In this document: piece after piece, positions 5,925 through 42,890 of the stretch
Layout: the number at the start of each line of letters is the position of its first letter
Position numbering within the stretch: the stretch's first letter is position 1
Origin: Heliocidaris erythrogramma
Lineage: Eukaryota > Echinodermata > Echinoidea > Camarodonta > Echinometridae
Length of the DNA: 64,000 nucleotides
Reading direction: 5' to 3'
Assembly (NCBI GenBank): GCA_025617745.1
Contig: CM046864.1
Coordinates: 28,086,199 to 28,150,198 of the forward strand
Position numbers and translations under genes: made by a program
The notes under the pieces: generated by a model
Told to the model about the DNA's origin: nothing
Databases searched by the model: none
Seen by the model: only the letters and a program-made list of their open reading frames with translations

Positions 5925-6075
5925 AGCCAATCAGCAAAACGTATCTTCGCATGACGTCAGCATACATTTGGTATGCAAATTCACCTTCATCTCGAGCTTG
6001 TGCGGCCCGTGCAAGCTACTAGTACATCAACCATGGAAAGCAAGCCCCGCAGATACCGTTGTGATTGGTCGATAA
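5925..6075 (+). promoter_or_regulatory. Promoter-like motif cluster (CCAAT, CRE, octamer)
   Basis: Within 55 bp lie CCAAT (5927-5931), a full CRE TGACGTCA (5952-5959) and the octamer ATGCAAAT (5973-5980); a reversed CCAAT follows near 6064. CCAAT plus octamer is known from sea urchin histone promoters, but no histone coding sequence follows. The motif cluster is seen; promoter function is inferred. Confidence 0.3.
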
Positions 6076-6111
6076 TCTTCGGTAGGCGTCTTAGCATACG
6101 AATGTCAACTC

Positions 6112-6333
6112 GTGAATAATTCATATCGGACGATGGAAACCCAGGTTCCAAAAGGCCTCGCGACTAAAGTAGCTCGATCGCGCGTTCACCCGGGCCGTGT
6201 TGATTCTTTTCGTCGCCGGCTAGTCTCATCTCAGGCACAGCATGACGAGGAAAATAGCCAAGTCACGAGGCCTTATCAAAAGGCTACCACAGCTGGTACA
6301 CCTGATCCACAAAATATCCCGTTAAAATCCTAG
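6112..6333 (+). CDS. Small hypothetical ORF downstream of promoter-like cluster
   Basis: A 73-codon ORF whose second in-frame Met opens METQVPKGLATK. The product is basic and then polar (RRRLVSSQ near the middle), with no membrane segment, signal peptide or family I recognise. It lies about 130 bp after the CCAAT/CRE/octamer cluster in sequence with more CpG than its surroundings, the main reason for listing it. An earlier ATG at 6031 opens a 28-codon frame that would compete for initiation. It may be a first coding exon or a chance ORF. Confidence 0.2.
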   Translation: MNNSYRTMETQVPKGLATKVARSRVHPGRVDSFRRRLVSSQAQHDEENSQVTRPYQKATTAGTPDPQNIPLKS

Positions 6334-6529
6334 GATAGTTAGAAGCAGTATCCAAGGTTCAACCTGGCACAGAGACGCCTCTCGTCACTACTGACATAGG
6401 ATCCTTGGTCTATCCTCGGATACTCTTGAAATATTTGCTGTTGAGAGTACTGTGGCGCAGCCTACAGTATGGCCATTGTGTGGGAGCATCGAAAATTAGC
6501 TGGATGATGCGAGGTGGACACATCAGGAC

Positions 6530-6689
6530 CATTGCTTCTAGTGTTTAGATGAATTAGACTAAGTCCATTTGTAGAAGTATCATTGTTTCCTGCATTTAAA
6601 GAATTAAACTTAGTATTAAAATCCTCAGTTGTATAGTAATCACTATGAATATTCAAGGCCTGATTATCATTAAGGTCATCATTGTTCAT
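6530..6689 (-). pseudogene. LINE endonuclease N-terminal fragment
   Basis: Read from 6689 on the minus strand, about 53 codons resemble the lead-in of a non-LTR endonuclease: YYTTEDFN, then LSLIHLNTRS. The second matches the common 'SLIHxNxRSL' start of APE-type endonucleases. Homology ends near 6530, where the frame passes into unrelated sequence. It is an isolated, truncated scrap; the catalytic residues are absent. The family is inferred from this short motif only. Confidence 0.45.
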
Positions 6690-7369
6690 TTTTTGTGGAT
6701 AGATTGTGTGACGTTATCCTCAACTTATGCCCTGTTGTGATGTGCGTGCACGTGGGTGCGCAGTGAAGGTGGGTACACGGTGTGTTATAAAGATTAAAGT
6801 AAAGAGAGTACATTAAAGTATACAATCTTTCAATGCCAAAAGAAAAAAAAAAAAAAAAAGGTTATTTGACAGTCTGCCGGGGGTACCAAGGATAAGTAAT
6901 TGTTGATTAGATACAGCATATAAATATGGAGGAAACAGTTTGAATACAACCATAGCATATAGATTCTAGAGTTTAATTCCGGTATGGACCAGTGACCGGG
7001 TAGACCCGGTAGGTCGCTGAAATTGAAAAGAAAATGTGTGTAGTTGTTCTCATTACAAAGTATGAGGCAAAGGCTGTACACAGTATGTAGCAATCAGTCT
7101 ATAGGGAAACCTAGTACAAAAGGATAGTTGCGTAATTTTTTAGACTTCGGGATGGAGCAGTACACGAGCATGTTTGGAAATAATAAGTGTAGTGCAGTTG
7201 GTTTGTTCTTGCAAGTGTAATGGCGAAAGAAAGGCAGCAAATGAGTGCAGCAGAATTTGCTGTAAGGATGCTGAAATTATAAATTGGGAAAAAGTAGAGC
7301 TGTTTGTTGACATAACAATACATGATTATATGGTTTTCAATTTCTAAAAGAGAAAAGAAACACCTAGAG

Positions 7370-8080
7370 CGATTAACATCAGTATGAGTACTTAAATAAC
7401 ATAATTGGAGGTGACTGACCGGCATATAGCAATCTGAATACTTATGTAAGGTACACATCGACTGAAATCAATTGTCAAAAGGCAATCTGTTCAGTTTCGG
7501 TACGAAGTACATAGCACAGGAGTACAATACATGGTTATATGTTAAATAACAAAGGAGTACAATACATTGTTATACCATTAGGGTCAAAAGTTTGGGAGAA
7601 TGTGGCCTCAATATACGGTTTTATTTTCAGGATAAGGCTGAGAATGCAATTAAAAAGTACTGTTTAGATTTGTTTGTTTAGTTAAACGCAGACCCCATCT
7701 CCTTGTTCTATTGAGGCGACCAAACATATGACATTGACAATGGTGCTGTGAAGATTCATACCATACTATTCCAAACCACGTATTTGTGGAATTTCTTTCT
7801 TATGGGTTAAACACAGAATGAATAAGTGAGATGCTATAAAAACCCTGAGGTAATTGACCGGCATAACAAGTTAAATACCTATGTTAAGAAAAAGGCCCTA
7901 CATTGACCAAGGTCGAATAGCCGAAAGACAAATTGTTTTGTATGATCCGAAGCAAAATAAAGAGTAAAACACCAATTGCATAATAGTTCACATGCAGGAG
8001 AGTGGACTCCATATAAATCTTTGTTGATTGATTTTTTTTTCTTCAGAAAAAGGCTGAGAATGCAATTTAAAAAAAATTTA
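7370..8080. repeat. Two diverged tandem units of about 420-450 bp
   Basis: Matching landmarks recur: GACTGACCGGCAT (about 7415) and ATTGACCGGCAT (about 7853), and AAGGCTGAGAATGCAATT at about 7631 and 8047. The copies are strongly diverged. They precede a second set of tandem units (8285-9930) upstream of the gypsy-like element. No coding potential. Confidence 0.5.
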
Positions 8081-8284
8081 ACGTTTGAAATGTAAACACA
8101 AGCTGTTATCTCCTAAAGCGATCATCACAATAGTTTATGAAGAAAAAAGTATATAATCGCCCGTTTAGAGCCAGAAGGGCGCCAACTCATATGTTTTAAC
8201 ACAGAGTCTACGCCCCTCCGGCCCCCAACACACGACATTGCAACCCGAAAAACAAATAAGAGCTTAATTTATTCAAAATCGGGC

Positions 8285-8935
8285 TCAGATATAGACAATC
8301 GTAAAAAAAAAAACATAAGTAGGATACTGGTCTATACAAGGTGTAATATATATACCTTCGAGTTTCAAATCTAATCGGATCGTTTTACTGTTACTACATT
8401 CATTGTGATAATCACAATAGTTTATGAAGCAAAAATGTAAAGCATCGTGACTATTCTGCAAGTCAAAATTTCAAAGTATGTATTGTAACCCGAAAAACAA
8501 TTAAGAGCTTAATTTATTCGAAATCTGGCTCATATATAGACAATCACAAAAAAATAAGTAGGATACTTAAATCCTTTGAGAATGCTAAGCCAATTTAGGA
8601 AAACAAAAAAAATCTTTGTTGATTTCAAGAAATAATATTTTATAATGGTCGGTACCAGGTGTAGTATGTACCTTCGGGTTTCAAATCTAATCGGATCGTT
8701 TTACTGATACTATACATTCATTGTGATAATCACAATAGTCTATGAAGCAAAAATGCAAAGCATCGCGACTATTCTCCCAGTCAAAATTTCAAAGTATGGG
8801 TGTAACCCGAAAAATAGATAAGAGCTAAATTTATTCCAAAATCTGGCTCAGATATAGACAGTCACAAAAAAATAAGTAGGATACTTAAATCCTTTGAAAA
8901 TGCTAAGCCAATTTAGGAAAAAATAAAAAGAAGCA
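8285..8935. repeat. Tandem units sharing a GTAACCCGAAAA block
   Basis: Repeated blocks include TGTAACCCGAAAAA, AATAAGTAGGATACTTAAAT and AATCTAATCGGATCGTTTTAC, recurring at about 320-350 bp with internal deletions. The CTAATCGGATCGTTTTAC block also occurs in the units at 9026-9930, so both sets descend from one repeat. Confidence 0.6.
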
Positions 8936-9025
8936 TAAGGGGAGACACGAGGTAAATTAAAAATAATTTTCAAGTTTCAAGGGCATGTTTGCATTGGGTG
9001 AAACGCCCCAGGAACGCCCCAGGAA

Positions 9026-9930
9026 GTGAATTTGGATACAACTACCACGCCCTGCTCATGAGCAAATACTATATGCTTAGATATTGGTTATAGCCTTAGG
9101 GAAGTATGTTGTAGAGCTGATCAGGAGCTGGATGTCCCGAGTCCTCCCTCACTGCTCGATACAAAGCTTCCCCTCAACTATCACACAATATGAGTGGACG
9201 AGAAATAATATTTTATAGTGGTCAGTACAAGGTGTAATATGTACCTTCGGATTTCAGATCTAATCGGATCGTTTATTGATATTATACGTTCATTGGCTTG
9301 ATATATATTGACGACATTTCAAATTAATAGGATTGTTTTTATTGATACTTATCATAGGTTCATTATGACCATCTTTGCTGCATACATGGTTAGCAACATT
9401 TGAAATTTATAAGTCAGTGAAATTGAAATTTATAAGTCAGTGAAAATGAATTTGGATACAACTACCACGCCCTGCTCATGAGCAAATACTATGCTTAGAT
9501 ATTGGTTATAGCCTTAGGGAAGTATGTTGTAGAGCTGGTCAGGAGCTGGATGTCCCGAGTCCTCCCTCACTGCTCGATACAAAGCTTCCCCTCAACTATC
9601 ACACAATATGAGTGGACGAGAAATAATATTTTATAATGGTCAGTACAAGGTGTAATATGTATCTTCGGGTTTCAGATCTAATCGGATCGTTTTACAGATA
9701 TTATACATTCATTGGCTTGATATATATTGACGACATTTCAAATTAATAGGATTGTTTTTATTGATACTTATCATAGGTTCATTATGACCATTTTTGCTGC
9801 ATACATGGTTAGCAACATTTGAAATTTATAAGTCAGTGAAAACGAATTTGGATACAACTACCACGCCCTGCTCATGAGCAAATACTATGCTTAGATATTG
9901 GTTATAGCCTTAGGGAAGTATGTTGTAGAG
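9026..9930. repeat. Tandem direct repeats (421, 394 bp, then partial)
   Basis: Units start at about 9026, 9447 and 9841 with GAATTTGGATACAACTACC and are nearly identical. Unit 1 is longer partly through a local duplication of AATTTATAAGTCAGTGA. The third unit stops near 9930. They end about 440 bp before the likely Gag start of the gypsy-like element and could be its 5' non-coding region or an older host repeat. A (CTG)n tract follows at 9981-10003. Confidence 0.7.
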
Positions 9931-10370
9931 CGGTCGGCCAGCTATATGAGATTGTAAGGATAATACTTTGTGTTTTTTGGCTGCTGCTGCTGCTGCTGCT
10001 GCCGTTGATGTGATATTATTACTGTAATTATATTACATTTGTAATTAATGGTTGCAGATATTGTATATTGCTGCTGCTGCTGATATATTGATATAGACTA
10101 TTGTTAGTGTAATTTAGATTTTAACTGCTAATAAAATATAAGTAGCATTTCGTTTATTTTTACTGACTACAAAAAAGTCTTTGAGTCAGATAGAATAATA
10201 TTTAGGATTAAATCTATTCATTTTCTGTTTCTGTTTTTGGAGTCAAGGGCGGATTCCAAAAAATAGAAATTATTTTGATTTTTGTCGGAAAGTCACCGAA
10301 GCATATTTACAATTGGAAATATTGTGCTGTTTTAGTTTTTGATATTGATATTGCGCATTTCACGCCCGAT

Positions 10371-11183
10371 ATGGCTTCAGGGTTGACGAGAATTAAAATT
10401 AATTCTTGCACCCACGAGGAGCTAACAAAGCTTCCAGGCATTGGTAAAGTGACGGCCGATCGTATCATCGAAGTAAGAGAGGCCGTCGATATCACTCCCG
10501 ATATCTTCATGTCGATTCCTAACATTAAGGGGGCTGAGTTGTTGGTTTATGCCTTCGACTATGAACCCACAAATGGTAGATCACTTGAAGATGAGGACTC
10601 GCGTTCTACTGCTGAAGAACTAAATACAAGTAAACTCGCTCAACCTCCCACTTCGCAGCCGGCCGTGATTACACCACAGATTAGCCAAGCTGATTTTAAT
10701 TTGTTTGGCGCTGTCGGCGAACCATTACAGGCCGTTGCAGGGGGGATTCAACGGAGTTCAGAGGGGACCGGGCAGGTGGGGAATATGCCCCCACAGGCCT
10801 CGGATCCCTCGCAAATTAAAGCAAAATCTTCTTGGGGTTCGGATACCTATTTCCCAGTAGGGGATAGTAGAAGGGAGCAATTGGGATTTGCTAAGTGGAG
10901 TAATGGGGTGTTACCAGGGTATGACATCTCTAGGGCCCCTAGGGATGCACCCCCACGCCCGAAACTAGTATCTCCACTGCAGTCCCCGCGGGCACAGCCC
11001 AACTTGGTCTCTCAACCACAACCCCACTATGTTCAATCACGAATGGATACAACTTTGACATACCCACAATCAGCTGTACATACATGTCCTTCCCCACAAC
11101 CAAGTATGACAGTTCCCCCAAATGTGTCAGGTCCTCCAAATTATGCTGATATGTGTCGAATGATGTGGCAAGTGATGAGTTGA
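10371..11183 (+). pseudogene. Gag-like N-terminal part with helix-hairpin-helix domain
   Basis: The frame is open from 10275, but the likely start is ATG 10371 (MASGLTRIKIN), directly before the domain. Residues 10-55 from that Met form a helix-hairpin-helix of the ComEA/DNA-repair type, with the diagnostic LPGIGKVTADRI hairpin; such domains bind the DNA or RNA backbone without sequence preference. About 200 residues rich in Pro, Gln and Ser follow, as in disordered Gag linkers. The frame ends at a TGA (11181-11183) immediately followed by an in-frame ATG, and the next ORF continues the same composition. The TGA is therefore either a nonsense mutation (CGA to TGA would be CpG decay) or a readthrough site. 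A helix-hairpin-helix in Gag is unusual in my knowledge. Confidence 0.7.
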
Positions 11184-12098
11184 ATGCCCTTTGGAGGGGT
11201 TGGACAATTCCCTCCTCCATATGGACATTTTGCTCCCGGTTTTGGTGGATTTTATCCACCAGGAGCTGGCACACAAACACCGAATCCATTGCCACAACAA
11301 ATGGGTGGGTATCAACCCCGTATGCATCAAGCCCCTCAACCTTCTCCACAAGGACGAGTTGGAATGATGTACGGGTACCCATCACCAGTAGGTCAACCCC
11401 GTATGCATCTAGCCCCTCAACCTTCTCTGCAAGGACAAGGCGGTCAGATGCATGGGTATCAATTACCCACAATTGACCGCTCACCTGCCAAGGTGGGTTT
11501 TTCTGGATGTTTCAATTGTGGGGAGCAAGGCCATTTTAGCAGAGTTTGCCCCCGACGAGGAATACCTTCAGTTGGCGGGCAGGTGAGAGCAGTGTCCTTT
11601 CAGGAGGAGGGAAACGAAAGAGGATCGGAGGAGATGGGGGGTCCCCGATCCGATCAGGGACTCCCCATCTCCAGCTCCATTATCTCCGATAATGTGAATG
11701 CGGCCGTAGGCAATGGGAATCAGGCAGGCAGTGTGGAATCTCAGAGAAATTCTGAAGTTTCTGAGGCTCCAGCAGCACGTTTGGTTCCCAAGATGGTACC
11801 CTTCCAGGACCCACCCTGGCCACCAGATACACAGGCAAATACTGGTAGGCCAGGGATGAATAAGAAAGTGGAAGTGATAGTATGTAGAATAGTATCTACT
11901 TCCACATTAAATATCAAGTTGACAGCCGGCTCTGAATCAACTACTGCGGTTTTGGATACAGCAGCCGCTGTCACGATTATATCCGATAAACTATTTGGCC
12001 GTATCCAACCTAGACCGCCTATCCTTAAGCAAGTTAGACTTAAAGGGGCTGGACGAGATATGATAATGGATTCGTTCAGGAAGAGCGTGCCCACTTAA
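11184..12098 (+). pseudogene. Gag C-terminal part with CCHC knuckle and aspartic protease
   Basis: Same frame as the preceding ORF. Residues 1-95 are Pro/Gly/Gln/Met-rich with two near-identical blocks around RMH(Q/L)APQPS. A CCHC zinc knuckle follows (C109, C112, H117, C122; CFNCGEQGHFSRVC), the nucleic-acid-binding signature of retroelement Gag. Near residue 258 is DTAAAVTIIS, the flap-side motif of a retropepsin, where DTAAA replaces the commoner DTGA/DSGA. Protease homology stops after GAGRDMIMDSF and the frame terminates at 12098. The tail of the protease and the linker to RT have been deleted with a change of frame. Confidence 0.75.
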
Positions 12099-12740
12099 AC
12101 AAGATGCTGGCTGCTGGGGTAATCCGACCTTCTATGTCGGAATGGGCATCTCCTCCTGTGTTAGTGCGTAAGCGAGACGGAGGAGTCCGCTGGTGTATTG
12201 ATTACCGCAAGCTAAACAATGTCACCAGAAAGGACGTGTATCCCCTACCAGGTATTGAGGAATGCCTTGATACTTTGGCTGGCAATAAATGGTTCTCGAA
12301 ACTCGATGCCAATGCCGCCTATTGGCAAATCAAGGTTAAAGACTCGGATAGAGACAAAACAGCCTTTATCTCCAAATATGGGCTGTATGAGTTTGTACGT
12401 ATGGGATTTGGGCTGTGCAATGCACCGGCCACTTTCCAACGTGTGATGAATCTGGTCTTGAGAGGTCTCACGTGGGACGTAGCGCTTGCATTCTTGATGT
12501 TCTTGTTTTGGGCACATCTTTTTCAGATCATATCGAGAATCTAAGAGCAGTCCTGGGACGTTTCAAAGATTATAAGCTGAAACTGAAACCCAAGAAATGT
12601 GCCTTTTTTCATCAAAGGGTCGAATTCTTGGGTAGAGAAGTTGATGGTGCAGGTTTGCATCTTAAGGAAGAAAACATTCAGAGGGTAGTTGACTGGCCTA
12701 CGCCTACGTGCACTAAGGAAGTAGAACAGTTCCTGTGGTT
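12077..12740 (+). pseudogene. Ty3/gypsy-type reverse transcriptase, broken
   Basis: RT homology begins just before LAAGVIRPSMSEWASPP, and runs through VRWCIDYRKLN, WFSKLDANAAYWQI and GFGLCNAPATFQRVM, all classical gypsy RT blocks. Near 12490-12500 the frame changes. The catalytic Y/F-x-D-D box is reduced to a single Asp (ILDVLV in the second frame), so a codon was lost with the frameshift and the enzyme should be dead. The second frame continues with the thumb region (KLKPKKCAFF, VEFLG, WPTPTCTKEVEQFL) and stops matching at about 12735, before the usual YYRRFI. RNase H and integrase are absent. Confidence 0.85.
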
Positions 12741-13500
12741 CCTGTGCTATCCTGTCGAGGTGACTGGGGGAGTCATGAACTTTTGTGACCCGTCACGATA
12801 TTCGGCCTCCGGTTACCTTGACAGAGTGTTTGACCGTTTGCCTGCTGGGCATGGGGTGGCAGTGGGGATACATCCCAAGCATGCTTTCGATTTGCCAGAG
12901 CGTCATTTTAGTATTCTGCGATCACTCCTTGCAGATCCTAGGATCATTGGAATCTCGGAGGTGGGGTTAGATTACTCCACGGATGACTCTCAGTGGATGG
13001 CCCAAATGACACTTTTTAAGCGGATTTTGGCACTGTCCACTGGGAGGGTCCTTGTTCTCCACCTGCGGGGTTCCACTGGCCCTAGACAGGGTGAAGAACC
13101 AATTCCTCGTTCAGTACACAAGTTGGCGCGCGATACCATCCGTCGACTGTGCCCGGCCACCCAAAGAATACATCTCCATTGTTTCACGGGTTCGCCGGAC
13201 ATAGTCGACAAATGGATGTCAGCGTTTTCCCATGTCTATTTCGGGATAACTGGGAATGTGAGTTACTATCGGGGAGCTGAAGCTCACCTTAAGCGCCTGG
13301 CAATTCAATCTATACCTAATGACCGCCTTCTTCTCGAGACGGATGCACCCTATCTGCCCGTTCGCCCTCGCCAAGATTGGCACTATCAAACATTCGTGGG
13401 GGATGTCGAGCAGGTGGTGGCTCAGATTCGAGATACCTCTCTCAGATCTGTTCTCGAGGAGACGGCGGCCAATGGCAGAAAACTGTACTGCCTGAAATAA
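12741..13500 (+). CDS. TatD-family metal-dependent nuclease domain, N-terminally truncated, fused to RT
   Basis: About 252 codons in the same frame as the RT thumb region (an open frame from 12415). The fold signatures of TatD DNases (TIM-barrel metallo-hydrolases) appear in order: GGVMNFCDP, AVGIHPKHA, ISEVGLDY (Glu ligand), LVLHLRGS (His ligand), HLHCFTGS (His ligand), LLLETDAPYL (Asp ligand). The N-terminal HxH metal pair that normally opens the domain is missing because the join to RT removed it, so full activity is doubtful. No introns, and the stop overlaps an AATAAA. The closest animal group appears to be the TATDN2-like branch, judged from the HLHCFTGS style. It could be a captured host gene or a genuine extra domain of the element. 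Confidence 0.8.
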
Positions 13501-13516
13501 ACGTGGCAGTACAATT

Positions 13517-13798
13517 CTAGGTTACCCGTTCTGAAGTGTCGGTTAATGATGCTTCCAACTCGTCGAGTTTGCGATTTATCGCTTTAGATTCAGCACCCAA
13601 GTTGTCCAGTTTCAGGGTTAATAGGTCGGAAAGCGACTTTATATCTGCTTTCAATTCTCTGAGGGTTGTTTGGTCGAGAATAGGCTCCTGTGTGGGGTCC
13701 TGGGCGGTTGCTGAGGCGGCGTGCGTTGTTGACTTCGGACTTACAGTTTTCTCTGTGTTTGTTGTTACCGGGCGATTTCGGGTTTGTCTCGTAGTCAT
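13517..13798 (-). pseudogene. LINE ORF1-like coiled-coil fragment
   Basis: From ATG 13798 (MTTRQTRNRP) on the minus strand: a basic, Ser/Thr-rich head of about 45 residues, then a coiled coil with heptad spacing (LRELKADIKSLSDLL, LDNLGAESKAINRKLDELEASL). This order matches the N-terminus of L1-type ORF1 proteins. It stops at 13517, just where the TatD ORF ends on the other strand, so the rest is lost. Family assignment rests on architecture only. The 200 bp upstream (13800-14030) contain TTTCCCGC and GGCGGGAAA, E2F-like sites that could be remnants of an internal promoter. Confidence 0.4.
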
Positions 13799-14272
13799 GA
13801 TTAGCTTAGACCGAATCTCACGTAGTAAGAAGAAAGTCAGTAGTTTACTTGTTTGAACCCTCCAGGTAGATCAAGCCACAATATTTCCCGCTGAAGACTT
13901 ATCGGTCCATGTGTGTGAAATATAAGTGCGAGTATGCTGCACTAGTAGTGGTGGCGGGAAATGGTTCCAGCCCGGAGAGCTGTCAAATAACACGTCTTTA
14001 CTCCACGGCGTCCATGCACATGACGTGTCATCAAGTCATGTCCTCACAGGTCATCTGGAGGTCAGGACGTGCGCGTACGCGCGCGTCAAAATTTTAAAAT
14101 GCTCAAAATCACGTAGGATCAAGTCTGCACACGTTTCAGGTCATTTTGAGCATTTCAAAAATTTCCGTGCGTAAGCGTCCGCGCGCGCAAGTCGTAAATA
14201 ACGTTAAAACGCTGTTTTTTCGATTGATTTGCAATCCTGACACTTTTCTTCATCATTTCCATCAACTAGGAA

Positions 14273-14463
14273 CAAGGCCGTACGCAGAATTTTTTTCCGG
14301 GGGGGGGGGGGGGGGGGCAAGATGGTCGCTTTCAATATTGGGTCATTTAAAAGTCTAAAACCCGATTAAAAAAAAGTATAATTTTGACAGTTCTGGGGGG
14401 GGGGGGGGGGGGGGGGAAACTGCCCCCCTGCCCCCCCCCCCCCCCCCGCTGCGTACGGCCTTG
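14273..14463. mobile_element. hAT-type MITE with perfect TIR and 8-bp TSD
   Basis: CAAGGCCGTACGCAG (14273-14287) is repeated as its exact reverse complement at 14449-14463, and both flanks carry ACTAGGAA, an 8-bp target duplication. The 191-bp body holds three long G or C homopolymers (for example 14395-14416). Perfect ends suggest recent mobility. Confidence 0.9.
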
Positions 14464-15640
14464 ACTAGGAATCATTTTCAATCAATAATAAGGTCGTACG
14501 GGCGCGTCAAGCTTTAAAATCCGTGCGCGCGTCTATGGCGAAAATAACGTAAAAACGTGCAAAAACATGCCAATACAAAATTCACTATAGCTCGTTAGAT
14601 AGTCCGTTGACCCACAATTTTTTTGTCATCAAGTAGGGTATGAATCATAGATTTCATTTCATGTATCATTTGACCGTTATAAACATTATGACGTCATCAA
14701 AATGGCGCCAGAAGTCAAAATTTCCCTTTTTCATGCTTTGATGTCATCACATTTATGCAAATTTGGCTCTAGATTCGTAATTATTGGTCATTTTACGCCC
14801 AGATTTCGATATGTTATAGCTGAGACAATTCTCTAAAAGGCCAGTTACCACCATTTTGATGACGTCATCACAGTGAAATTTTCAATTAAAGATGCCATGT
14901 CAGAATTTTCCCTATTTGCGTGTTATGTCTATGGAAGATGATATTTTTTTTCGAATCATGAATCTACACGACATTGTTCTCTGAGCTGTATCTCAGTTGT
15001 TTTTGGTCTATTTTCTTCCAGATTTTAGTATGTTATAGCTGAGACTATAAGCTTTTATTAATATGGTCTCCAATTTTTGATCAGATGTCGGGATCATGCC
15101 CAATTTTTCACTACAAAATGGGATTTGAGAATCCTGTTTTTCGTTTACGTGTTATCTCTATGGGAAATATTTTGGTATATTGGTCAAAGAACTTGCCTCT
15201 CATTCCGGTGACCCAGGTTCGATCCCCGGTGGGGCCATTAATTTTTTTTTTTTTTTTTGCTTCTTTTTGCCTTTCATTTTAGCATCTTGTTCGACTATTA
15301 TAACATAAGCAATCACAAACCAAGAAATAAAATGCCTTATTTTGCATGTTATGTCTATTAGAAAGTAGTGTGCAGTAGTTTATGTATAACCCTATGGAAA
15401 ATCTGATTCCCTGAAGTGTATTAAAGCTATCCTGCAATATCATTAGTCCTATATTTGATATTACAATTCTCAAAATTGGCTTACTCAATTATCTTCAAAT
15501 TTTCGTCAGTCATCGGTCCTAATAAGGTCAAGTTTCCACATCTTTTTCAAGGTCATCAGGTTATCGTGACGTCATCTAGGCGCCATTTTGTACAAATCAA
15601 CTTATGGTCGTATCTTCATAACGAAATGTGATTTCTCTTT
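14464..15640. other. Non-coding repeat-like stretch
   Basis: No gene. Recurrent motifs such as GTTATGTCTATGG (about 14920, 15345; variants near 15150 and 41626) and several GACGTCATC sites next to AATGGCGCC-like strings suggest an old dispersed repeat. Overlaps the tRNA-like segment at 15180. Confidence 0.4.
15180..15237 (+). repeat. tRNA-derived SINE head or tRNA pseudogene
   Basis: The segment reads like the 3' two-thirds of a tRNA: part of a D-arm, an anticodon-arm-like ACTTGCCTCTCATTCCGG, then a T-arm with B-box GGTTCGATCC and GGGGCCA at the end. The 5' acceptor strand and A box are absent, so it is not a functional tRNA gene. A poly-T run follows at once. Confidence 0.55.
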
Positions 15641-15664
15641 CATATTTGGCATGGTTAAGGTCAC

Positions 15665-15960
15665 TGTCATTGCAGTCATGGTCATCATCATTATATCATC
15701 AATCATCTTCATAATCACCATTACCATAATAATCACCATTATCACATCATTAATCTTCATTATCCCCTTCATTATCATGATTATCATCACCATCATAAGC
15801 ATTACATCATCATCATCAGCATTATTATCATCACTGTCATGATCATCATCGCTATTATTGTTATATCATCACCATCATTATATCATCATACTCATTATAA
15901 CCATCATCATTATATCATCTTCATCATCACCATTATCATCATCACCATAATCATTTTACA
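15665..15960. repeat. Imperfect TCA/ATT trinucleotide microsatellite
   Basis: About 300 bp of interrupted ATC/TCA/ATT triplets. It gives long Ile/Ser-rich or Met/Ile-rich frames on both strands, which are composition artefacts and not proteins. Confidence 0.85.
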
Positions 15961-16241
15961 ATGACCGTTTCAATCATTTTGCTACATTTATGTCCTCAAG
16001 AAGCATCTCCATTCATGGTATTCTTAACTTCCTATCTTCAGTTTAGTATTTCCTCATTATTATGATCATCCTGATTACGATCATGATCATACAAATTGAA
16101 AAACAGACCACCTAATTCGTTGTCATGACGAATTAAATTCTAGTTTTGACTTTATTTACCTATCGCTATGATTTATGAATAAATTAAAGATGAAAAGTTT
16201 GTCACTTTGTCAAAGTTTGTGTTTTGTTGCGTTGTTAGGCA

Positions 16242-16356
16242 GTGTATACAGCCACACGCGTGTGTCTTCACCATCCAGCCACACGCGGCAGTGACGCGTG
16301 TGGACGCGTGTGGTTGTATCCGAACCATGTATGACTGGATACAGCCACACGCCGGC
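16242..16356. repeat. CAGCCACACGCG repeat element, copy 1
   Basis: Bounded by GTGTATACAGCCACACGCG and CAGCCACACGCCGGCA. The same sequence occurs inverted at 30248-30350. Internally it repeats and inverts CACACGCG, so it can form hairpins. The 3' tail of the L2-like LINE abuts its right end. Confidence 0.7.
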
Positions 16357-16436
16357 ATTATTATTATTATTATTACTTATAACGCGCTTTTCCCATTAGG
16401 CTCAAAGCGCTTACAATAAATTAAATCATCTACAAA

Positions 16437-19400
16437 CTATAAACTATCGAAAAGATGTGTTTTTAATGCCTTTCTGAAAATTATTACTGATGAAGACTTT
16501 CTAATAGAAAGTGGCAAATCATTCCAGTATTTTGAAGCTGACACAGTAAACGTTCTATCACCAGCTAATGTTCGAGTTACTGAATATGTGAGGCGGAGAG
16601 GGTCGCTGGCGGACCTTAGTAATCTAGTGGGCTTGTATAAACTCAGACAGTTAATTAAATACTCTGGAGCCTGGTTATTAATTATTTTGTAGACAAACAA
16701 GAGTAATTTGAAAATTATTCTTTGCTTCAAAGGAAGCCAATGTAGTGAGTTCAAGAGTGGTTGAGAAGGGTGGTCTCGAGAAACCTGTAAAATTAATCGT
16801 GCTGCCCAATTTTATAATCGTTGAATACGAATCATCTGATTAGAGGGAATCGTAGAAAGGAGTTCATTGCAGTAATCAATACGAGATAAAACTAGAGAAC
16901 GGACAGCATTGTGACAAGCAGACTGATCGATGAACCTTCTGATTCTAGAAATGCTCCTTAAATAAAAAGTAACTGTTTTACAGATGTAAGATATATGATG
17001 TGACATCGACATACACGGATCAAACATAACACCAAGGTTTCTTATTGTTTCTGAAGGTCTTATGAGTGTGCCACCAACATCTAACTGAACATTTGGAAGA
17101 CTGCGCAGGTTGTAAGCAGAAGCAGCAACAAAAAATTCAGTCTTTGAATCATTCAATTTTAACTTATTCACCACCATCCACTCTCTTATATCTGATATAC
17201 AATTCTGAAGTGTAACAAGTGCATTATCAAGAGCTTCAGGAGTCTTAGGATCAAAAGAAATATATAATTGTATGTCATCAGCATAAAGGTGATAATTAAT
17301 ACCATGATATCGAATGATGTCACCAACAGGGAGAGTATATATTGAATATGCTATGGGTCCCACTATTGACCCCTGCGGGAGTCCAAATTCTAGAGTTGTG
17401 GGATTTGACAATGTGCTGCCAATGTCAACTTGTGAAGACCATCCAGACAGGTATGATTTGAACCATGATGAAACTGTTGACCTAACACCTATTCTATTGA
17501 ATAAACGAGATATGAAAATGTGATGATCTATTGTATCAAATGCTGCTGATAAATCTAACAGCACCACAAACACTACATTATTTGAGTGAAGAGAAAACAT
17601 GTCATTTTTCACTTTGATTAGAGCTGACTCAGTACTGTGACTTGACCTGTAGGCAGATTGGAGAGAATCAAAAAGATTATTAGATTCGATATGATGAACC
17701 AATTGTGTACATGCTGCTTTCTCAATGAGTTTACCCAAAAATGTTAAGTTTGAGACTGGCCTATAATTACTGAGATCATTTTGGTCCAAGCCTGGTTTCT
17801 TCAAAAGTGGTTCGATGATTGCAAAATGTGCTTCCTTGGGGAAAACACCTGTGGAAAGAGATTGATTTACTACATTTGTGAGCAAATGTAATACATGAAT
17901 AAGGTTCTCTTTCAAAAGCCAAGTTGGAATAGCGTCAAGGCGACAGGACTTAGTAGCTGATGACAAAATGATTCTGGACACTTCTGACTGAGTAAGCAAC
18001 TGAAAATCTGCAAAAAAGGGAATGTTTTGATTTTCAGTGTCACTAAACTGAATATTACTAGGTCCAATACTGGCATCTAGTTCGTTTCTTATTCTTTTTA
18101 TCTTATTTACAAAAAAAGGGACGGAAGAAAACTGATTAGATAATCTGAGTGCAGAATCGTATAAGGGAAGTTGAATCAACTTCTTATTCAGAAGTGAATG
18201 AATAATCTGATAAACCTCCTTGGCAGAACAAGAACTCAGCTTATCTTTCAAGAAATTTTCTTTAGCAATATCAATGATATGGCATGTATTCCTACTAGCT
18301 TCTTTGAACAATGTGCGATCTGAGTCTAGTCTTGTCTTGTCTTTCTCCATTTTCGTTCAGCTTTACGGCGGTGCTGACGAGCAGCAACCACAGACTCATT
18401 GAACCAAGGTCTGCGTAATTTCAACGGACGAGAATTGGTTGAAGATGGTGCGCAGGTATCAAGTACCTTAGTGATACCAGAAACATACCAATCAAAAAGA
18501 GATATACTATCTAATTCTTTAGGTTGAGATGAAACTAAATGACTTAGGGCATTAGTAAATTGAACTTTATCAATCTTGCGATAGTTGCGTAGGGAAGAAG
18601 TAACAGAGACTGGCCCTGATTTCTGATGAGCCAGTAAGAAACAAATCATGTAATGATCAGAGACGCAAGTATCAACTGTATGACAGTGTAGAATAAATGA
18701 ATCATCTCTTGTAAAAACCAGATCTAGAGTGTGACCAAGGTTATGTGTTGGACCCTGGACATGTTGAATGAACCCAGCGGATGTAATAATGTTTCTCATC
18801 TGGAGCACATCATTTTTTCTCATATCCTCCCAATGAACATTAAAGTCTCCCAATAACACCAATTTTCCAGGACACAGTGATATCTCACATACGTATCAAA
18901 TTCTTTTAAGAAATCAGAACTTGTGAATCTATTTGCTAAAGAAGGTGGTGGTCTATATACAATGAAAAAATGGATTGAACTTGACAAGTCGGTAACATGA
19001 GCACATTCAAATGTAGAAAAACTCAAATCTGTTTTCTTAAACATCAATTTAAGCATGGATTTATGCAATACACAAATTCCACCTCCACGTGTACTTGCAT
19101 TTCTTGGTGAATTAATAAAAGTATAACCTATAGGAGTGCACTCCCCAATCACTACATCATCCTGAGTATTTAACCAGGTTTCGGTAATGCACATGACATC
19201 GATATTGTATTCATGAATATACTCGGTAACATATGTAGTTTTGTTTCTAACAGAATGTGCATTCCATAAACAGACATTACAACTAAATCTTACATTAGAA
19301 TTATCAACATATGACACTGATCGAAGATTGGCCATATACCTTCCCCTCTCTTTATGTACATACCGGTTTGTATCATTCCTTTTCTGCCCCCCTCTCTTCC

Positions 19401-19881
19401 CTCTGAAATGTGTCTGGATACCAAGTTCCTTAATCCGAAGCCATACATTCTCGTGGAGCATGCCCCTGTTCTTACGCGTATTGTGAGCAATGTTCGACAA
19501 TCCACTTGTCACTACCTCAGGACTGTAATGCCTCCATGCGGGATTGCACTGCAAGAGGAAATCTCGGTCATAAACCATGCGTCCATGAGTTCCATTGCAC
19601 GATAAGAATGAAGATTGCTTATGAGTCCTATAGTCCCCGAGAGCATATTCAGTTGCTGGACCTGGATTAGGGTCGACATCGCCAGACTTCAATAACTGGA
19701 ACTGAAATGTTGCCGTTGAATTTTGATAGTACAGCTGGCGATGTTTCAAGTACCTACAATGAACCCAGGATACTGAAGTATGAAGATATCCATGTCCATG
19801 TACATGATGCGGCACAGCTGCAGTTGAGACTTGGACGGTAGATAAAATGCTAAAGATAAACCAAAGTCTCAATAGCTCCAT
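16437..19881 (-). pseudogene. L2-like LINE polyprotein (2A, endonuclease, RT), three lesions
   Basis: Part 1 (19881-about 18870): a hydrophobic signal-like start (MELLRLWFIFSIL), then FQLLKSGDVDPNPGP at residues 61-75, and the endonuclease start (WNAHSVRNK; ITETWL with catalytic Glu near residue 234). A frameshift near 18870 moves to a second frame with VLLGDFNVHWED, HTLDLVF and VSDH, the remaining endonuclease motifs. A second frameshift near 18335-18345 enters the RT frame: LLDLSAAFDTIDH, GLPQGSIVGP and an intact YADD (residues 356-359 of that 512-codon frame). A TAA at 16812-16814 (expected Gln codon) interrupts the same frame. Beyond it the C-terminus continues (LNSLHWLPLKQRI, WNDLPLSIRKS) to 16437. 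Total length, about 1150 codons, is that of a full L2 ORF. Catalytic residues survive, so decay looks fairly recent. Confidence 0.9.
19657..19683 (-). other. 2A-like ribosome-skipping motif in LINE ORF
   Basis: The codons read GDVDPNPGP. The 2A consensus is D-V/I-E-x-N-P-G-P, so the only departure is Asp for Glu. In known 2A sequences the ribosome releases the upstream product at Gly and resumes at Pro. Here that would free about 74 residues that begin with a signal-like segment. Confidence 0.7.
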
Positions 19882-20222
19882 TGTAATGCACTAATGCTAC
19901 AGTATAAGATCAATGAGTTACATGTACAATACAATAGCTTCTAAAGTTGAGTGAACATGAATAGTGAACACCAAGTACATACATAGTAGGCAGTCAACAC
20001 AATACACAGCCTACATGTACAAAATGGCATACAGATACAGAGTAGATCAAATCAGATCCAGTGCAAAAAATATTGCATCAAATTTCTCACCAGATATTGA
20101 AAAATACAACCATAAATTTTGGCAAATTGTATCAATGCACATAACAAATTTGTCTGATACAACTGAAAAGTCAAAATCCACAGTATATGAAAGACTAAAT
20201 AGTCAAAATATCAGAGCTTTAA

Positions 20223-41242: not shown

Positions 41243-41809
41243 ATGGGAGATGGAAGGCCAAAAGCATGCATATTCCCGGGGATTTATGCGGGGTCGAGTA
41301 GGTCCCTTGCACCTTTTGAGCCTTCATTAAGCCTTTTCAGAGTCTCAAATTACATGTAAGCCACATTTGCACTAAATTCAAGGTAATACTAGAGGAACTA
41401 TAATCATTTTTAAAATCCATGTTTTCACGTGTTAACCCTATGGCAGATGACTCTGTCAAAAAGCAGGCATGATCCAAGGGATTCATATCGGCATTTATTG
41501 ACAAAAAAGGTTCAAGAAATGTTTTTTTAACTATCCATCCTTTTTCTTGTGCAAACATCAGACTTGAAAAAGATAGAGTAAGATATGAATTATCAAGAAA
41601 AAGTGAGACATCTTTTCACGTGTTATACCTATGGAGAACGTATTTTTCCGAGTCTGTTTTTAACACAGCAAAGTATGCCTCCAAAATGTACTACGGAAGT
41701 AGGTCAGAGTAATCTGTCTTGATACTATTTAAAGTCTTTGGCTCGACTCAATATACACAGAAAAAGCGTATAGCAATATTAGTTATTTCGATTACAGAAT
41801 AAAAATAAA

Positions 41810-41883
41810 CGATAACAAAATCAAGGGTAACGATTACAAAATCAAGAGTAACGATTACGAAAGCAAGAGAAACGATTACGAAA
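41810..41883 (+). repeat. 21-bp degenerate repeats
   Basis: AACGATTACAAAATCAAGAGT and variants repeat about 3.3 times, leading straight into the 61-bp array. Confidence 0.7.
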
Positions 41884-41884
41884 T

Positions 41885-42890
41885 GAATTTTGTGTACCAC
41901 GAAAAAAATTTCGTGTACACAAAAGTTATTTCGTCGCAACGAAATGTATTCCGTACCGAACGAAATAAATTTCGTGTACACAAAAGTTATTTCGTGGCAA
42001 CGAAATGTATTCCGTCCCGAACGAAATCAATTTCGTGTACACAAAAGTTATTTCGTCGCAACGAAATGTATTCCGTCCCGAACGAAATCAATTTCGTGTA
42101 CACAAAAGTTATTTCGTCGCAACGAAATGTATTCCGTCCCGAACGAAATCAATTTCGTGTACACAAAAGTTATTTCGTCGCAACGAAATGTATTCCGTAC
42201 CGAACGAAATCAATTTCGTGTACACAAAAGTTATTTCGTCGCAACGAAATGTATTCCGTCCCGAACGAAATCAATTTCGTGTACACAAAAGTTATTTCGT
42301 TGCAACGAAATGTATTCCGTACCGAACGAAATCAATTTCGTGTACACAAAAGTTATTTTGTCGCAACGAAATGTATTCCGTCCCGAACGAAATCAATTTC
42401 GTGTACACAAAAGTTATTTCGTCGCAACGAAATGTATTCCGTACCGAACGAAATCAATTTCGTGTACACAAAAGTTATTTCGTCGCAACGAAATGTATTC
42501 CGTCCCGAACGAAATAAATTTCGTGTACACAAAAGTTATTTCGTGGCAACGAAATGTATTCCGTACCGAACGAAATAAATTTCGTGTACGGAATTGCGTT
42601 AAGTTGCACACATAATGGATTTCGTTCAACGAAAGCAATTTTGTGTACACGAAATTTATTTCGTCGCGACGAAATAATTTTCGTTCGGTCCCAAAAGTCA
42701 TTTCGTTGCAACGAAATGGATTTCGTGTACGCAATTTACATTTCGTACCGCGAAACTGTATTTCGTGGTTACGAAATTAATTTTGTGAACGCAATTACAT
42801 GACGAACCAACGAAATCTATTTCGCATGGGTCAAAAAAGTATTTCGTGTACGGAATTGCATTTTGTAAAAAATTTCGTACGAAATTGTGT
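41885..42890. repeat. 61-bp array of ACGAAAT/ATTTCGT motifs
   Basis: ACACAAAAGTTATTTCG recurs 11 times from 41917 at exact 61-bp steps (to about 42588). Decayed motif-rich sequence extends left to 41885 and right to about 42890. Each unit has ATTTCGT and its complement ACGAAAT, so both strands look alike. Because 61 is not a multiple of 3 and no frame has a stop, overlapping ORFs of up to 241 codons are open; they are not credible genes. GTACCG and GTCCCG variants alternate between units. Confidence 0.9.

Follow-up and report, generated by a model that had tools for sequence, protein, structure and literature searches.

The window analysed here, by which is meant the whole stretch of 64,000 nucleotides of Heliocidaris erythrogramma DNA, contains a gypsy-type retroelement copy in which the thumb of the reverse transcriptase (RT) runs on in one open frame into a TatD-family nuclease domain. 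The order of domains on the forward strand is a ComEA-like helix-hairpin-helix, a CCHC knuckle, a weak retropepsin-like stretch, a gypsy/Ty3 RT and TatD (Table 1). Judged from its sequence the copy is dead and internally deleted; it is called dead because gag is interrupted by a stop codon, the RT changes frame at what we take to be the catalytic box, and RNase H and integrase were not found. Neither the RT nor the TatD of the present copy is expected to be active. The copy may descend from a gypsy/Ty3-type family whose members carried a TATDN2-like nuclease beyond the RT, the central part of pol having been lost here; this is our preferred reading, to which as a matter of judgement we give an even chance of being right.

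Table 1. Features of the gypsy-type copy and of the TatD domain joined to it (positions are those of the window)
Feature	Position	Strand	Evidence or remark
Gag-like N-terminal part, helix-hairpin-helix followed by proline-rich, probably disordered sequence	10371..11180	+	ends at in-frame TGA
ComEA-type helix-hairpin-helix	about 10389-10484	+	Pfam HHH 4.8e-7, HHH_3 5.2e-7
Continuation of that frame, with proline-rich repeats, CCHC and retropepsin-like stretch	11184..12068	+	Pfam
CCHC zinc knuckle	11505-11552	+	Pfam zf-CCHC 3e-5
Weak retropepsin-like stretch	about 11910-12056	+	gag-asp_proteas 0.028, RVP 0.032, Asp_protease_2 0.053, each under cut-off
Gypsy/Ty3-type RT, fingers and palm to catalytic box	12074..12496	+	RVT_1 2.1e-17
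End of RT palm and thumb, in a frame different from that of 12074..12496	12496..12750	+	RVT_1, 4ol8
Junction of RT and TatD	12751..12760	+	RT similarity ends 12750, TatD similarity starts 12760
TatD nuclease domain minus N-terminus, single open stretch to stop	12760..13500	+	TatD_DNase 1.2e-33
TatD ligand residues	E 12958-12960, H 13060-13062, H 13177-13179, D 13342-13344	+	alignment

A preliminary description of this DNA had the frame passing from gypsy RT thumb motifs into TatD, and matches to RVT_1, Ty3 RT and TatD_DNase do all fall within a single frame at 12391-13500 (+), which is open from stop to stop over 369 aa. Among the stop-free stretches of the 64-kb window it ranks second in length, after one of 514 aa that lies on the opposite strand and contains an RT domain. 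When 10212-13500 was shuffled 100 times by mononucleotide and read in six frames, the longest stop-free stretch did not exceed 193 aa (median 122). With RT similarity reaching 12750 and TatD similarity resuming at 12760 the join can be placed within about 10 bp. Just upstream of it the octamer TTCCTGTG occurs twice as a direct repeat (12730-12746); this repeat was rejected as the breakpoint because the RT similarity extends beyond it. An AG is found at 12755-12756, just upstream of the start of TatD similarity. The shared frame was dropped as proof of a natural fusion: under any deletion model, and on either view of the origin of the TatD, a join is in frame by chance one time in three, so that the shared frame decides nothing. 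GC content, at 0.42-0.52 across the gag, RT and TatD segments compared with 0.39 for the whole window, speaks for a TatD native to the element. Codon composition was dropped as a test of common origin, the GC3 values of 0.38-0.51 within the element and 0.52 for TatD not being decisive.

The RT is present in two parts that lie in different frames, and the nearest solved structure to both is the Ty3 RT (4ol8). The first part matched residues 82-207 of the chain (E 2.8e-27), the second matched residues 216-300 without a gap (E 3.9e-8). The first match ends at 12469-12472 and the change of frame follows before 12496, over what corresponds to residues 208-215 of the Ty3 RT; it is at this break that we place the YxDD catalytic box. 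On the thumb part RVT_1 was matched at profile positions 155-203 of 205 (E 7.4e-6) with 26.2 bits, slightly below the cut-off of 29.6. Nothing in the copy corresponds to residues 1-81 of the Ty3 RT chain, and upstream of 12074 the RT frame is open for no more than ten codons, because of which the copy seems to lack the stretch that would link protease to RT.

The TatD domain was recognised by TatD_DNase (PF01026) over profile positions 55-252 of 253 with 117 bits, well over the cut-off of 27, and by TIGR00010 of NCBIfam with an E-value of 1.8e-26 yet only 93 bits, the cut-off there being 206. Like the TatD/YcfH nucleases that these profiles describe it keeps four ligand motifs: when the window was aligned with two other TatDs (L002 and a fragment of 2gzx), the E, H, H and D of EVGLDY, LHLR, HCFTGS and ETDAPY did not vary among the three sequences. 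Unlike them it is fused to an RT and has lost about the first 26 residues and with them HxH, whose absence had been reported beforehand: the metal site is incomplete, the N-terminal HxH segment being without a counterpart in the alignment, and BLAST similarity to a full-length bacterial TatD begins at residue 124 of the ORF, equivalent to TatD residue 27. A scan of the window for HxH-like motifs in six frames found six places, none of which was judged to be a TatD N-terminus. With HxH and the first strand absent an active nuclease would not be expected from the present TatD copy. From 12757 the TatD part is open for 247 codons, without introns, and an AATAAA at 13496-13501 overlaps its stop codon.

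The TatD part matched 11 solved structures, almost all of which go under the names of TatD, YcfH or a related DNase. First among them was 2gzx (1.7e-19), a putative TatD related DNase that is presumably bacterial; the match to TATDN3 was far weaker (7.6e-5) and no TATDN2 chain was among the 11. QatD, the TatD-type nuclease that belongs to the anti-phage system Qat, matched the same domain (E 2.8e-14) but scored only 53 bits where the cut-off is 230, and a Qat system is not in evidence here; QatD is a further example of a TatD outside housekeeping. An FCDP motif lies upstream of the core of the TatD domain, as we believe it does in human TATDN2, and the label TATDN2-like, already used in the preliminary description, is a provisional one. 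TATDN2 is described as having a disordered N-terminus and a C-terminal TatD, and as an RNA exo/endonuclease acting in R-loops (PMC12709183). The present frame shares with metazoan TATDN2 the C-terminal position of the TatD domain, whereas the medaka tatdn2 gene is divided into at least four exons and passages of the same paper on TATDN2 make no mention of pol (PMC12709183).

Upstream of the RT the copy has a CCHC knuckle and a putative, weakly matched protease-like stretch, which together with the RT stand in gypsy order as in other Ty3/gypsy elements (Metaviridae). It is unlike those elements in having a ComEA-like helix-hairpin-helix in Gag and a TatD joined after the RT. The gag-like part also matched TIGR01259 comE (1.1e-4), at 22 bits against a cut-off of 152. 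Two AlphaFold models predicted without an alignment were of low confidence (mean pLDDT 42.7 and 45.5), and the gag-like N-terminal part was modelled with low confidence over most of its length. Gag is split by the TGA at 11181-11183, and a capsid domain gave no Pfam match in the frames of the element. As all of the protease matches are under their cut-offs, the protease label is based on motif and position. A 43-bp stretch within Gag (11630-11672) and its reverse complement share 88% identity. A search of the open-licence PubMed Central literature for a helix-hairpin-helix combined with a zinc knuckle in the Gag of an LTR retrotransposon returned no paper.

A further difference from Ty3/gypsy elements is that RNase H, integrase and LTRs were not found in the present copy. 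RNase H and integrase gave no Pfam match in four ORFs and the few motif patterns used for them were unmatched at 9000-16500, consistent with their reported absence. No LTR pair was detected by a repeat search of 7000-17000 or when 9001-15000 was compared with the window by blastn, and between 6000-10371 and 13497-20000 only three exact 12-mers, of which two overlap, and nothing longer were shared. A second TatD, RT or Gag of the same kind was not found in the window by tblastn.

Two neighbouring tandem arrays lie upstream of the copy at 9024-9931 (period about 396-420 bp) and 8237-8930 (spacing about 245-318 bp); the former ends near 9931, which leaves about 440 bp before the element's first domain. 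On the 3' side an antisense, coiled-coil-like frame (13517-13870, -) ends about 17-20 bp after the TatD stop; its Pfam matches were weak and all below cut-offs, and we take it to resemble the start of a LINE ORF1. There are two purine runs of at least 10 in 13401-14400, one at 13827 and a poly-G at 14299, neither of which is at the TatD stop. Poly-G and poly-C runs in inverted arrangement occupy 14299-14448, and similar runs occur at about eight other places in the window. Further downstream a LINE-type element (16812-19890, -) with endonuclease and RT domains is split across at least three frames, the 5'-most of which encodes GDVDPNPGP, presumably similar to the 2A peptides of sea urchin LINEs. 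In a repeat array at 41733-42615 all three forward frames are open for 182-281 codons.

Relatives of the element were sought in three collections (viral_contigs, genome_contigs and 395 prokaryote genomes), the contents of which are viruses and prokaryotes, so that the absence of relatives from them says little and is not evidence against a family of animal elements. In viral_contigs the RT alignment picked out 22 stretches and the Gag N-terminus four, with no relative confirmed, and the pattern for the TatD part matched no stretch. A pair of TatD patterns, FCDP followed by E[VIM]GLDY with a TTT codon for F, occurred at one place in the window, the TatD itself, and in none of 100 shuffles; in viral_contigs it was found neither in this form nor with TTC. 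Its one match in genome_contigs (TTT form) was rejected as chance, since it is antisense to an 807-aa frame, which looks to us to be of FtsK type. None of the 395 prokaryote genomes was matched by the RT protein in a search for host contamination that was run without a positive control. A viral fold search returned 528 matches at E-values up to 10 and none at 0.001.

Of the earlier interpretation the fusion, the inventory of motifs and the lack of both RNase H and integrase all stood, and the two origins that it offered, a deletion inside an element with a TatD of its own or a chance fusion with a host gene, are both plausible. The order of the domains is observed, unlike the membership of TatD in the element before the deletion, which we infer. 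A native origin seems slightly likelier than a chance host fusion because the TatD is intronless, on the same strand and collinear after the RT, in a copy with other internal loss. The TatD occupies the collinear position of a pol-terminal domain, in the same strand and frame as the RT thumb, and intact relatives would probably encode it beyond integrase, as the last domain of pol. As other internal loss is apparent (the linker between protease and RT, and a capsid that was not recognised), losing RNase H, integrase and the TatD N-terminus as well would be unremarkable. Against a native origin are the single known copy, the lack of an LTR pair and of a purine run at the TatD stop, the mosaic neighbourhood and an abrupt join that would be given equally by a chance deletion. 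Names such as ZMYM1 and POGK often mark transposon-derived genes. A figure legend on the Hox cluster of the giant squid gives these two names together with an annotation as TATDN2 (PMC6962438), which on our reading fits a TATDN2-annotated sequence travelling with transposons.

The abrupt start of the TatD part inside the domain, with a short direct repeat beside the join, is also what might be seen if a deletion or template jump had joined a decaying gypsy copy to a downstream, same-strand intronless retrocopy or large exon of a TATDN2-like host gene, which we consider the main alternative, at somewhat less than an even chance. The TatD is not followed by an LTR and on its 3' side passes straight into an unrelated piece, the AG beside the join would permit an exon boundary, and a human retrocopy of TATDN2 has been named (TATDN2P2, PMC5408686). 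With an antisense frame so soon after the TatD, the locus is a mosaic of fragments, and fragments are more readily joined by chance in such a place. However, for such a fusion place, strand and frame must all have agreed by a rare chance, there is no poly(A) run directly 3' of the TatD stop, and the HxH-like places in the window include none that looks to us like a TatD N-terminus. The mosaic locus, with its antisense coiled-coil-like frame right beyond the TatD and a GC content raised to about 14500 (owing in part to the poly-G runs), might alternatively suggest that the TatD came from a different mobile element of the region and that the gypsy fragment became its neighbour through rearrangement; this is improbable, no transposase adjoining the TatD having been recognised by Pfam and the two inverted-repeat pairs reported at 7000-17000, both at 14.1-14.4 kb, failing to flank it. 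Least probable, and very unlikely, is an error of assembly that joined unrelated sequences in the record. The assembly is gapped, with 500 N bases in the window, but these form a run near 40.7-41.2 kb, well away from a junction that is gapless and has an open frame.

If the copy does descend from a TatD-bearing family, a role for the nuclease in intact copies can be proposed. Known TatD relatives are metal-dependent 3' exonucleases or AP/RNA endonucleases. The TatD of an intact copy might clear RNA-DNA hybrid or primer remnants before integration, or might trim the 3' ends of new cDNA before that step, while the helix-hairpin-helix of Gag would add nucleic-acid binding. An animal family of gypsy type with a ComEA-like helix-hairpin-helix in Gag and its own TatD after integrase, in which a host-like R-loop or AP-site nuclease finishes the cDNA, is put forward only tentatively, at a little below an even chance. 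Among the papers found by searches of the open-licence PubMed Central literature, none reported a TatD-bearing retroelement or transposon in its title or the opening of its abstract.

Possibly the locus is ordinary genome debris, and a chance fusion would be no more than that. Should intact copies share the architecture, there would be an LTR element with a repair-type nuclease in pol and with it a new, testable step in cDNA processing. If the architecture is real, invertebrate genes annotated as TATDN2 may be transposon genes, and if the proposed family exists many of them would be element-borne.
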